From NCBI GenBank assembly GCA_003225315.1, contig QHZD01000019.1, positions 186,001 to 250,000 of the forward strand: a DNA stretch of 64,000 bases, read 5' to 3'. The notes beneath the pieces were generated by a model. The model was not told the origin of the DNA. It worked only from the letters and a program-made list of their open reading frames with translations, and ran no database searches. Of the stretch, positions 14,179 to 53,687 are shown piece by piece; the first letter of the stretch is position 1, and every line of letters begins with the position of its first letter. The position numbers and the translations under genes are program-made. This DNA is from Acidobacteriota bacterium (lineage in GTDB: Bacteria; Acidobacteriota; Terriglobia; Acidiferrales; UBA7541).

Positions 14179-14532
14179 ATGACACTGAGACACGAAAGAG
14201 CCGAGCGGCACGCCATTCAGATTCGCAAGGGCGATAACGTCAGGGTGATTGCCGGGAAAGACGCCGGCAAGAGCGGGCGCGTGCTTTCGATCAACGCGAA
14301 GAAAAACACCGTGGTGGTCGAGCACGTGGGCATCATCAAGCGTCACACGCGTCCCAACCCCTCGAAGAACATCAAGGGCGGGATCGTGGAGAAAGAAGCG
14401 GGAATCAACGTCTCGAACGTGATGGTGGTCTGCGGGAGCTGCGGCAAGCACACGCGGATTGGCCACACGATTCTGCCGGACGGCACGAAAGTGCGCAGTT
14501 GCCGGCATTGCAACACGACGCTGGACAAGTAA
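14179..14532 (+). CDS. rplX: 50S ribosomal protein L24 with zinc-ribbon end
   Basis: L24 (117 residues) is an assembly initiator with a KOW motif (KGDNVRVIAGKDAGKSGRV). The C-terminus carries two Cys-x2-Cys pairs (CGSC and CRHC), a four-Cys zinc ribbon found in many but not all bacterial L24 proteins. An N-terminal extension of about 12 residues precedes the core. It starts 3 nt after rplN. Confidence 0.97.
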   Translation: MTLRHERAERHAIQIRKGDNVRVIAGKDAGKSGRVLSINAKKNTVVVEHVGIIKRHTRPNPSKNIKGGIVEKEAGINVSNVMVVCGSCGKHTRIGHTILPDGTKVRSCRHCNTTLDK

Positions 14533-14552
14533 AAGGATAGGCAGAGAAGGCG

Positions 14553-15110
14553 ATGAAGAGCCGATTGCAGGAAAAATACCGAACGGAGACGGTGCCCGCG
14601 CTGATGAAGCGCTTTGGCTGGAAGAACATGATGGCCGTGCCCAAGTTGAAGAAAATCACGGTCAACATCGGTCTCGGCGAAGCCAGCCAGAACGCCAAGC
14701 TGCTGGATACGGCGGCGGTGGAGCTTGGCCAGATCACCGGGCAGAAAGCAGTGATCACGCGGGCGAAGAAATCCATTGCGAATTTCAAGATTCGCAAGGG
14801 CATGCCCATTGGCTGCGCTGTGACGCTGCGCGGCGACTACATGTACGAATTTCTCGACCGCCTGTGCAACGTGGTGCTGCCGCGTGTGCGCGACTTCCGA
14901 GGCTTGCCGCAGAATTCCTTCGACGGCCGCGGAAACTACACGCTGGGGCTGAAAGACCAACTGGTGTTTCCAGAAATCGATTACACGCGCGTGGACAAGA
15001 TCAAGGGCATGAACATCACCATGACGACCAGCGCGAAGAACGATGAGCAGGGTCGTGAGCTGCTCAAAGGGCTCGGGTTTCCGTTCCGCGAAAAAGGGGT
15101 GGCGCAATAA
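14553..15110 (+). CDS. rplE: 50S ribosomal protein L5
   Basis: L5 (185 residues) binds 5S rRNA and contacts the P-site tRNA. Conserved segments are [32 protein letters not shown] and the RDFRGL loop. It abuts rpsN with no intergenic bases, which implies coupling. Confidence 0.97.
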
Positions 15111-50745: not shown

Positions 50746-51270
50746 TTGCTTTCTCTACTCTTGGTCGCGGCCGGGCTGGTGTGGCTGTCGTTTGGAGACT
50801 GTGCAGGACTGTTCCGGCGCTCTTATCATTCAATTGTCCTGGGAGATAAGGACTTCATCGCACGGAAAGTTCGATTCAAGGTCCAAATAGCTGGTACTTT
50901 GCTCTTGCCGAACGGACGTCTCGGTGGCTTCACGACTGTGCGTGCCTCTGACTGCGTAGAGGTGACCATTGAGGAGGACGACGAAGGTTCTCCCTCGCAG
51001 GCCGTGGACGAAATGGAAAAGAGAATTCGGGGAAGCGTTCGCATCGTAGAACGGGTCCCAATCCGTGACCAGGATGGTGAACTTGTTGGAGAGCGCGTAG
51101 CGTTGGTGAAGGAAGGGCCAAAAGCAGAGATCATATCCCTGAAAAAGGGGGCCAGTAGATTGTTCGTAATTGAGTCGAAGTCTTTAACGCATGCGCTAGC
51201 CTATGAAAAGCTTATCCAGAATGGTTACAGGCTCGGCCCCCATGGCTATGTCATTGGAGAGGGCAAATAA
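50746..51270 (+). CDS. Small exported protein of unknown function
   Basis: A 174-residue protein that begins with a hydrophobic segment (LLVAAGLVWLSFG) and so is probably exported or anchored. The rest is polar, with beta-strand-like and charged stretches, two Cys and no family I recognise. The start is unclear: TTG 50746 is the first standard codon, but the frame upstream reads Ser-Thr-Lys-Pro-Val-Phe-Leu-Val, which looks like the true N-terminus, with GGGGGTAAG before an ACG at 50725. Codon use and GC are lower than in the neighbours, suggesting acquisition. It lies downstream of a promoter-terminator pair that may attenuate it. Confidence 0.6.
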   Translation: MLSLLLVAAGLVWLSFGDCAGLFRRSYHSIVLGDKDFIARKVRFKVQIAGTLLLPNGRLGGFTTVRASDCVEVTIEEDDEGSPSQAVDEMEKRIRGSVRIVERVPIRDQDGELVGERVALVKEGPKAEIISLKKGASRLFVIESKSLTHALAYEKLIQNGYRLGPHGYVIGEGK

Positions 51271-51350
51271 CAGGCGAGTGGCCCATACCTGGGGCTCGGC
51301 TCTCGGGACGCAGTTTTGAAAGCTAACGAGCGGGATCCTTTGTAGGTCCT

Positions 51351-51394
51351 TTAGAATCAACACTTGCAGGAGGCTTTCTAATTGTTGATTCTAA
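51351..51394. repeat. 11-bp inverted repeat upstream of the carbonic-anhydrase-like gene
   Basis: TTAGAATCAAC (51351-51361) and its exact complement GTTGATTCTAA (51384-51394) are separated by 22 nt. Near-copies of AACACTTRCAG occur at 51359, about 51396 and 51428, two of them extended to ACTTACAGAAAA. The stretch is AT-rich compared with its surroundings. It may be an operator or a remnant of a mobile sequence. Confidence 0.6.
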
Positions 51395-51461
51395 ATAACT
51401 TACAGAAAAGCTAAATTCTTTAGATGCAACACTTACAGAAAACTGGGGGGAGGCTGTGGTT

Positions 51462-52082: not shown

Positions 52083-53687
52083 GTGAGCGAAGGCGCAGCC
52101 AAAAAAGAAGAGAAGCCGCGCAAGTTCCAAGCGATCCGCGGCACGCGCGATTTGCTGCCGCCGGAGACGGCTCTCTGGAATCGCGTCGAGCAAACCGCGC
52201 ACGAAGTCTTCGCCACTTTCGGCTTCGGCGAAATCCGCCTCCCGATCTTCGAGCCAACAGAATTGTTTGCGCGCTCGATTGGGTTGGATACCGACGTTGT
52301 TTCAAAGGAGATGTACACTTTCCCGGATCATCCACTCCGGCGTCTGGAGCAACTCAGGGAGGCAGTGAAATTTGAAGGCGCGACGTTTTGGCCGACTGAT
52401 GATGCGAGCTTATCTCTTTTCACCAAAGCACTGACCAGGTTCGTAGAATCGCTAGGAGAATTGTTTAGAGACGAAGACTCCGAAACTTATAACAAAGAGC
52501 GATTTGGTCGATTGCGCACCGAATTGACAGATGAAGTATCGAAATTTCAACAGCTCCTCAAGCTTGGCCCCGCTGAGGGATTAGATAGTGAGCTGACGAG
52601 ATCGAAGGAACGAATTGAGACCATTCTGGGCTTTTTTGAATTCGGAGAGTCGCTCACGCTCCGGCCAGAGGCCACAGCCAGCGTTTGCCGCGCTTACATC
52701 GAACACAACATGCAGCAACTCCCCCAGCCGGTGAAGCTCTACTACATGGGGCCGATGTTCCGGCGCGAACGGCCGCAGAAAGGACGCTACCGGCAGTTTT
52801 ATCAGATTGGCGCGGAGGTACTGGGCGGCAGCGACGCTCCGGCCATCGACGCCGAAGTCATCGAAATGGTGATGACGTTTTTCGACCGCCTGGAATTGCA
52901 GGGCGTTCAGCTCGATATTAATTCGATCGGCTGCCGCGAATGCCGCCCCAAATATGTTGAACAGCTGCGCGCCGCGCTCCTGAAAGTGAAGGACAAGCTC
53001 GGCCCGGACAGCCAGCGGCGCATCGAAACGAATCCGCTGCGCGTTCTCGATTCCAAACTCGAAAGCGAGCAGCCCATCATCGCCACGCTGCCGCACATCG
53101 CCGATCACCTCTGCGAAGAGTGCGCCGCGCACTACGCCGCCGTAAAGCATCAGCTCAAAATGCGCGGCGTAATCTACCGCGAGAATTGGCGGCTCGTGCG
53201 TGGCCTTGACTATTACATGCGCACGACGTTTGAAATCACGGCGAAGGGACTCGGCTCGCAAAATGCCGTGTGCGGCGGCGGTCGCTACGACGGGCTGGTA
53301 GAATTGCTGGGCGGGCCGCCAACCAAGGGCATCGGCTTTGCCATCGGCGAAGACCGCTTGATCTTGTCGCTGCAGGAAAGCGGGAAAGCGCCTGTTCAGC
53401 AAGGCCGTGACGTATACATCGCGTGGATGGGCGAGCGCGCGCAAGCGACAGCCATCCGCGCAGCGAAAGATTTGCGCAAGGCAGGATTCAGCGTGGAGCT
53501 TCCGCCGGTGGAGCAAAAATTCGGCAAAGCCCTCGGCCAAGCGGACAAACTCGGCGCGAAGTACGCGCTGATCCTCGGCGACAATGAAGTGTCCGAAGGC
53601 TTGTGGACGCTAAAGACGCTGGCCGACGGCGCGCAAGCAAAGTTCACTGAGCCCGATTTGCTGGAACATCTGAAGAAGCATCTGTAG
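52083..53687 (+). CDS. hisS: Histidyl-tRNA synthetase with a ~100-residue insertion
   Basis: Class II enzyme that charges tRNA-His. Motif 1 region, motif 2 (RPEATASVCRAYIEH then YYMGPMFRRERPQKGRYRQFYQ), the His signature LVRGLDYYMRTTFE and motif 3 GIGFAIGEDR are present, as is the anticodon-binding domain (from about residue 440). At 534 residues it exceeds the usual 420-430. The excess lies between KEMYTF (residue 80) and SLTLRPE (residue 190), where other HisRS have about 8 residues. The inserted segment, nt 52329-52644, has no stop, lower GC and a helical, charged character. GTG start at 52083 with GGAGCTG upstream. Confidence 0.93.
   Translation: MSEGAAKKEEKPRKFQAIRGTRDLLPPETALWNRVEQTAHEVFATFGFGEIRLPIFEPTELFARSIGLDTDVVSKEMYTFPDHPLRRLEQLREAVKFEGATFWPTDDASLSLFTKALTRFVESLGELFRDEDSETYNKERFGRLRTELTDEVSKFQQLLKLGPAEGLDSELTRSKERIETILGFFEFGESLTLRPEATASVCRAYIEHNMQQLPQPVKLYYMGPMFRRERPQKGRYRQFYQIGAEVLGGSDAPAIDAEVIEMVMTFFDRLELQGVQLDINSIGCRECRPKYVEQLRAALLKVKDKLGPDSQRRIETNPLRVLDSKLESEQPIIATLPHIADHLCEECAAHYAAVKHQLKMRGVIYRENWRLVRGLDYYMRTTFEITAKGLGSQNAVCGGGRYDGLVELLGGPPTKGIGFAIGEDRLILSLQESGKAPVQQGRDVYIAWMGERAQATAIRAAKDLRKAGFSVELPPVEQKFGKALGQADKLGAKYALILGDNEVSEGLWTLKTLADGAQAKFTEPDLLEHLKKHL

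Follow-up and report, generated by a model that had tools for sequence, protein, structure and literature searches.

A polymorphic acceptor site for exchangeable modules in the histidyl-tRNA synthetase of Candidatus Acidoferrales

Synthetases generally pass for housekeeping enzymes that evolve slowly. What, then, is an extra domain of about a hundred residues doing inside the catalytic domain of one of them? The question is raised by hisS, the gene for histidyl-tRNA synthetase (HisRS), in a 64,000-nucleotide stretch of an Acidobacteriota genome (contig QHZD01000019.1 of assembly GCA_003225315.1, positions 186,001 to 250,000), here called the window; the genome itself, G000, comes from an uncultured soil bacterium, is 97.6% complete and belongs to the gp2 Acidobacteriota, order Candidatus (Ca.) Acidoferrales. 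An earlier note, made from the sequence alone, had pointed to a long in-frame insertion between the KEMYTF and LRPE segments of the enzyme, and the gene does hold one: KEMYTF ends at residue 80 and LRPE starts at residue 193, in frame, leaving 112 residues where ordinary relatives have a turn of 8-9, a net excess of about 103. We find that the short turn before LRPEAT is a polymorphic acceptor site in the HisRS of Ca. Acidoferrales, one that holds nothing extra, a short loop, a module of 31-60 residues or an acidic module of 71-125 residues, and that the differences between related hisS genes come from local replacement of alleles around it. The gene and the elements that frame the site lie at the following window positions.

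52083 to 53687, plus strand: hisS, histidyl-tRNA synthetase, 534 residues (TIGR00442, E 7.5e-141)
52317 to 52328, plus strand: strand preceding the insert, E79-82 (DSSP of the model)
52323 to 52658, plus strand: insert region, residues 81-192, a predicted acidic four-helix bundle (gap of 112 residues against 8-9)
52647 to 52661, plus strand: strand following the insert, E189-193, which runs into LRPEAT (DSSP of the model)
52755 to 52799, plus strand: motif 2, MFRRERPQKGRYRQF, residues 225-239, intact (in alignment A1 all columns are invariant but that of K233, which is nearly so)

The reading frame is intact and scores 469.8 bits with the family profile TIGR00442, against a cut-off of 286.75. 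Since it is the sole HisRS found in G000 (one match at E ≤ 0.001), it presumably charges tRNA-His. The catalytic motifs on both sides of the insert are intact, as had been claimed: in an alignment of 75 HisRS rows (A1), L193, P195, E196 and T198 are invariant, and the LRPE.T segment, motif 2 and the GLDYY segment consist of invariant or near-invariant columns. LRPE had been assigned to motif 2, which it in fact precedes.

With 75 aligned HisRS as input, AlphaFold2 places four helices in the insert (residues 86-101, 107-129, 135-160 and 167-184, with block pLDDT of 68-93) between two strands, the first of which, E79-82, would be strand one of the class II core sheet. Folded alone, the insert again gives four helices at a mean pLDDT of 82, which agrees with the helical, charged sequence and the separate domain that had been anticipated; the window's HisRS is the only one of these proteins that was folded. 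All 41 long inserts carry a net charge of -2 to -10, compared with 33% of 322 background segments of 100 residues at -2 or below. Cysteine is almost absent from the inserts (0.3% of residues), and the long-insert alignment has no invariant column. On the model, the insert looks like a non-catalytic accessory module set into the catalytic domain. The best Foldseek matches of the full model are the canonical bacterial HisRS structures 4e51, 1adj, 4rdx and 1kmm, which share its core fold and whose chains of 362-420 residues are, judged by length and not by alignment, too short for such a module.

The lower GC and rarer codons reported earlier were also borne out. GC at third codon positions (GC3) is 0.49 in the insert against 0.74 in the rest of hisS, a value as low as the insert's occurs in 3 of 279 stretches of 112 codons in the window (these may include the insert itself), and the codons TTA, AGA, AGG, CTA and ATA make up 7 of 112 codons in the insert, whereas the flanks have 1 in 423 and the 48 longest non-overlapping frames 1.5%. 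This is not peculiar to G000 and is a standing property of the insert site: GC3 is below that of the enzyme's own C-terminal part in 56 of 56 inserts of at least 30 residues (mean 0.56 against 0.74) and below that of the N-terminal part in 50, the window's insert ranking 13th of 56 by the size of the drop. Either the inserts are replaced faster than their codons adapt, or they come from GC-poorer donors.

How widely is the site occupied? The order was sampled with 95 genomes, of which 87 gave a HisRS match and 83 could be read across the insert site; four HisRS (G063, G066, G106 and G118) were truncated or not fetched. Extra residues are present in 66 of the 83, in three length classes: 41 long (71-125 residues), 15 mid-length (31-60) and 10 short (15-24). 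The other 17 have none (8-9 residues). Outside the order the gap is 8-9 residues in 58 of 63 HisRS and 15 residues in four, one being unreadable, and a core tree of 141 rows unites the order in one clade that excludes all 63 outsiders. Two sister families with one readable member each both carry an insert (57 residues in G061, 105 in G062), so occupancy of the site is probably as old as the order. The insert in the window is thus not a recent private gain, and misassembly is very unlikely as its cause because 66 of the 83 genomes have extra residues at this very site. The possibility that it would prove to be an old lineage feature with ordinary codon use holds for its age, the site being occupied across the order, but not for the rest, given codon use that is unusual throughout and rapid replacement.

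The long inserts have diverged far. When aligned, the 40 of at least 75 residues are 10-25% identical to the window's insert, and each of the 40, when left out of the profile, still scores with it above the best of 50 shuffles (20.5 bits against 4.2 for the window's insert); to judge from these profiles, the long inserts form one family, kept recognisable across 11 genera. Against 299 genomes of the class the long-insert profile finds 35 matches in hisS, all within the order, together with weak ones (G181, G083, G050 and G037); against 396 genomes of the phylum it finds the window's genome only, with two weak matches (G491 and G537). Other weak matches are those at L002 in the window's own genome and at L037 in G034. 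A weak stand-alone match in G011 was discarded as chance, lying antisense to another frame that is presumably urocanate hydratase. With default filters, the long profile picks up not one of the 25 mid-length and short inserts up to E 10, so sequences without detectable relationship occupy the same site. Ten of the 15 mid-length inserts, spread over four genera, begin with xDP and may be a second family. Outside the order, family f11 of the same class has four members (L064, L066, L067 and L072) with a 15-residue turn, for example EDRGRADSDRGQSLT.

What a genome carries at the site is only loosely tied to its ancestry. On a tree of the HisRS core with 78 rows (five of the 83, fragmentary or with a broken frame, were left out), length class changes 30 times or more, against a mean of 35.1 when shuffled, and keeps at most a trace of inheritance; on a tree of AspRS from 30 genomes of the window's genus it changes 10 times, a count made without a shuffle comparison. 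Near-identical C-terminal cores (94-96%) carry unrelated inserts in G049 and G101 (96%), in G051 and G127 (95%) and in G014 and G011, with insert alignment z of -1.3 to 1.3, while related inserts are found in different genera: G006 and G051 share 49% insert identity at 69% in the core, G036 and G029 45% at 74%, and G056 and G116 43% at 66%. The histories of core and insert are largely uncoupled, and alleles are common to different genera while sisters differ, as would be looked for under diversifying or balancing selection with recombination.

Recent exchange can be seen directly in one pair, and recent replacement in another. The 43-residue insert of G028 and G008 is 93% identical in nucleotides, with a synonymous divergence (dS) of 0.15, where the N- and C-terminal parts of the gene have 1.29 and 1.37; the shared tract of about 240 bp, with blocks 0.88-0.93 identical inside and 0.64-0.84 outside, starts about 33 codons ahead of the point where KEMYTF ends and stops within the first few codons of LRPEA. 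Here homologous recombination has clearly carried a module from one lineage to another. The second pair involves the window itself. G000 and G013 have AspRS that are 97% identical and unrelated inserts of 112 and 31 residues (z 0.7); nucleotide identity is 94-95% in the upstream gene, 94-98% in the last third of hisS and 89-93% in aspS, and falls to 54-85% in the middle of hisS. In finer blocks it is 0.54-0.84 inside the replaced tract and 0.82-0.98 outside. Downstream of the insert the synonymous difference of G000 is 0.22 to G011 and 0.25 to G017, that of G013 0.43-0.63 to the listed genomes, and since the downstream part of G000 is close to other relatives and that of G013 distant, G013 is the likelier recipient. 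Exchange tracts thus measure from some hundreds of bases up to roughly 1 kb. Of the proposal that the domain had been gained horizontally, the separate helical domain and the exchange of inserts stand; a single foreign graft does not, with the site occupied throughout the order. The replaced tract and the codons that border the insert are these, the values of the second and third lines coming from 16 close pairs with unrelated inserts.

52200 to 53250, plus strand: tract replaced between G000 and G013, breakpoints approximate (nucleotide identity 0.61-0.85 inside against 0.91-0.98 just outside)
52275 to 52322, plus strand: 16 upstream codons that tend to differ along with the insert (synonymous identity 0.34-0.45, that of the core being 0.68)
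52659 to 52682, plus strand: first 8 downstream codons (LRPEATAS), of low synonymous identity (0.35 against 0.68 in the core)

Synonymous identity is back up by about codon +24, and blocks farther upstream lie at 0.46-0.67 in the same 16 pairs. Among 25 non-overlapping pairs with different inserts it averages 0.44 near the insert against 0.64 far from it and is lower near the insert in 22 (p 1e-6). Divergence therefore peaks at linked, mostly neutral sites, and less so in pairs with the same type of insert, which is a second pattern looked for under diversifying or balancing selection. Across all pairs of 31 genomes of the genus the peak is mild, with a synonymous difference of 0.53-0.58 in the 68 N-terminal codons and the first 20 after the insert, against 0.43-0.56 in the rest of hisS and 0.35-0.51 in AspRS. 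The inserts themselves have dN/dS (nonsynonymous over synonymous divergence) of 0.10-0.35 in four pairs with inserts of at least 43 residues and computable dS. As a control gene, the neighbouring AspRS gave a single-stretch match covering at least 589 of 596 residues in 30 of 36 genomes of the genus, with internal insertions of at most 2 residues and one deletion of 19; in the other six the match was shorter or broken in four, and only weak matches to other proteins were found in two.

What would keep so many alleles at one site of an essential enzyme? We lean, with somewhat less than even confidence, towards old, allelic modules that are exchanged by recombination, as observed, and kept diverse by a putative antagonist of HisRS. 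The module would serve as a shield or a decoy, a non-catalytic surface at the rim of the active site, where HisRS would be bound by a phage protein, by a toxin or peptide of a competitor, or by an inhibitor; rare module types would escape the binder; and negative frequency-dependent selection would keep many types, including 'none', circulating across species and genera. An antagonist is favoured because of the position next to LRPEAT, the acidic and non-catalytic surface, the tolerated absence of the module, the apparently unrelated solutions at one site, the types found across genera and the divergence centred on the module. A more far-reaching version, in which a widespread HisRS antagonist (a phage protein, competitor toxin or HisRS inhibitor) is countered by a trans-species pool of interchangeable shielding modules, much as in antigenic variation, is possible but somewhat less probable. 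Polymorphic exposed loops are familiar from essential targets of antagonists, such as the loops of BamA and bacteriocins; HisRS resembles these in being an essential protein with a locally hypervariable segment, and differs in being a cytosolic synthetase.

A number of observations weigh against selection by an antagonist. The analysis turned up no antagonist or partner of HisRS, no search for a partner gene having been made, and with one genome per species the sample does not cover allele frequencies within populations. Recent exchange is direct for one insert (that of G028 and G008) and recent replacement for one pair (G000 and G013). Length class is not distributed fully at random, 30 changes being the minimum of 200 shuffles, and the ten short loops of 15-24 residues overlap in length with the 15-residue turns of f11. 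Three of the 25 pairs with different inserts show the opposite direction in synonymous identity. Synonymous identity also dips among six pairs with the same type of insert (0.58 near it and 0.69 far away, with five pairs in that direction; p 0.09), and three insert-free pairs have a low block (0.32) at codons -24 to -16, so that some of the dip may belong to the 5' third of the gene as such. The dN/dS values of three pairs of 15-19-residue loops are scattered (0.99, 1.82 and 0.01) and the loops too short to judge, and dS is saturated in five further pairs of longer inserts. The model leaves it uncertain how the bundle sits against the core, with pLDDT of about 58 in residues 61-80. Finally, the control is one gene, AspRS, and in G035, one of the genomes with a broken match, that gene (L261), although a complete frame, is divergent in its middle (about residues 270-430 in the numbering of the window's AspRS), with added stretches of 4-13 residues between ends that are 83% identical to the window's AspRS; local replacement is therefore not strictly confined to hisS, which may not be unique in this respect.

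The last observation would also suit a permissive site, a turn that tolerates almost anything, where sequence is gained and lost almost neutrally and spread by chance through recombination. The variety of length classes, with short loops and the lack of any insert among them, fits this, as does an enzyme that functions insert-free in 17 genomes, and the low GC3 of all 56 inserts of at least 30 residues fits weak codon selection. Retention of an insert family over 11 genera speaks against it, however, as do the low dN/dS in the four pairs of longer inserts, the centring of divergence on the insert, and an AspRS without insertions of more than 2 residues in 30 genomes, and we consider this explanation rather unlikely. 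We think slightly less of partner docking, in which the insert would bind a co-evolving cellular protein (a regulator, another synthetase or a chaperone) and its fast change would reflect that co-evolution. A folded, acidic, non-catalytic bundle would be suited to such a role, and the nearest shapes in the PDB include peptide-binding bundles of the FAT type (CCM3 and FAK), which are alike in their overall antiparallel four-helix arrangement, at VIA-align Z up to 13.6. Values in this range are usual for helical bundles, however, and with 6-15% identity in the top rows and Foldseek E of 0.26 or worse the likeness is one of common arrangement and is no evidence of relationship. Moreover, 17 of 83 genomes are insert-free, so the partner would have to be dispensable, and modules that are not recognisably related hold the same site.

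It is tempting to compare the module with the insertion domain of glycyl-tRNA synthetase (GlyRS), and an extra tRNA-contacting domain that grips the acceptor arm of tRNA-His would be its counterpart here. The position of the insert after a strand of the catalytic sheet, between E79-82 and E189-193 in the model, appears to resemble that of the insertion domain in GlyRS of the alpha2 type (Thermus thermophilus and mycobacteria); that domain probably sits at the acceptor-arm site, and two groups of mycobacterial GlyRS have different insertion domains, one of them with a zinc motif (PMC12208437). The HisRS module differs in standing where a short turn is normal, in being an acidic predicted four-helix bundle with almost no cysteine, and in being exchanged for another from one close species to the next and missing from some, although little change in tRNA-His would be expected among them. 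GlyRS was not among 58 PDB sequences retrieved by the long-insert profile up to E 10. A pattern search for tRNA-His in 12 genomes gave a single match of uncertain identity, and Rfam gave no match near hisS. Since all 41 long inserts are net negative, binding of tRNA is disfavoured, and we regard this role as very improbable.

The atypical GC3 and codons had also suggested a graft left by a mobile element. Such a recent graft, or the remnant of an intein, can hardly be reconciled with a site occupied throughout the order, and the searches, limited as they were, gave it no footing. An intein, dismissed from the outset, is ruled out by the lack of a splicing-domain family and by the junctions: the window's insert alone matches no Pfam family at E 1, no intein family is among the Pfam matches of 40 long inserts at E 0.1, and the residue after F80 is proline while the insert ends in threonine before leucine. 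An in-frame mobile repeat element is likewise not supported, with no second copy in G000 beyond a weak match (E 0.1) and no repeats found to bound the insert. Pfam, PHROGs and PADLOC searched with the window's insert and with 40 long inserts, and NCBIfam with the window's insert only, returned scattered weak matches (best E 0.0041), each in only one or two members; a PHROG match named valyl-tRNA synthetase modifier (E 0.083, in one of 40 members) was rejected as being at chance level. The best PDB sequence for the long-insert profile was an outer capsid protein (E 0.0079), and Foldseek with the insert found no specific relative in the PDB (best E 0.26) or among viral models (best E 0.45). In a collection of genome contigs none of 217 pattern matches to the window's insert was related, and four limited searches, of viral contigs with the window's HisRS and with its insert, of phages with a single insert (that of G017) and of plasmids with the window's insert, gave no match, though distant forms could be missed. 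CRISPR self-targeting of hisS as the driver of replacement is barely credible: its precedent is a spacer proposed to act on hisS in Pelobacter carbinolicus (PMC2923632), whereas short secondary hisS matches in 36 genomes of the genus are weak (best E 5.7e-5) and mostly outside the insert, and the two examined, both in G022, lie inside open frames, a weak test, since spacers would match other alleles, and one in which CRISPR arrays were not searched for.

Other features of these genes and of the window may be recorded here. HisRS has a second variable site after GAEVL, at 52824-52844, where the window has GGSDAPA and six genomes of the genus have extra residues in its place (G004, G013, G020, G021, G034 and G035; loci L024, L036, L038, L040, L032 and L039). 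A third length-variable site is the loop after NSIG, which in four HisRS of genus g3 (L043, L044, L053 and L180) is longer and contains cysteine (CPDTPERKG or longer). G044 has two HisRS frames (loci L185 and L055): the second, on another contig, is insert-free and of higher GC, and the hisS of the usual type, on C46, shows sequence divergence inside motif 2; a xenolog, contamination or an assembly error is possible. Elsewhere in the window, the frame at 14459-15046 has the lowest GC3 (0.39) of the 48 longest non-overlapping frames and no Pfam match at E 0.01. The frame at 50746-51456, upstream of a hexapeptide-repeat gene that is presumably gamma-carbonic-anhydrase-like, also has no Pfam match at E 0.01, and synteny seems to break just upstream because the DNA at 50746-51456 is not conserved even in G013 (0.39 identity).

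Among the matches listed in searches of the open-access literature we found no paper on such an insert in HisRS, nor any account of order-wide, recombining, allelic turnover of one. Close to its active site the HisRS of this order acts as a surface antigen would, while in the closest pairs more than 90% identity is kept elsewhere in the enzyme, and hisS trees of the order mix several histories. We know of no natural inhibitor of HisRS. If selection by an antagonist is indeed what maintains the modules, they would point to a new weapon against HisRS, and the alleles circulating in Ca. Acidoferrales would amount to a natural library of HisRS-protecting modules.
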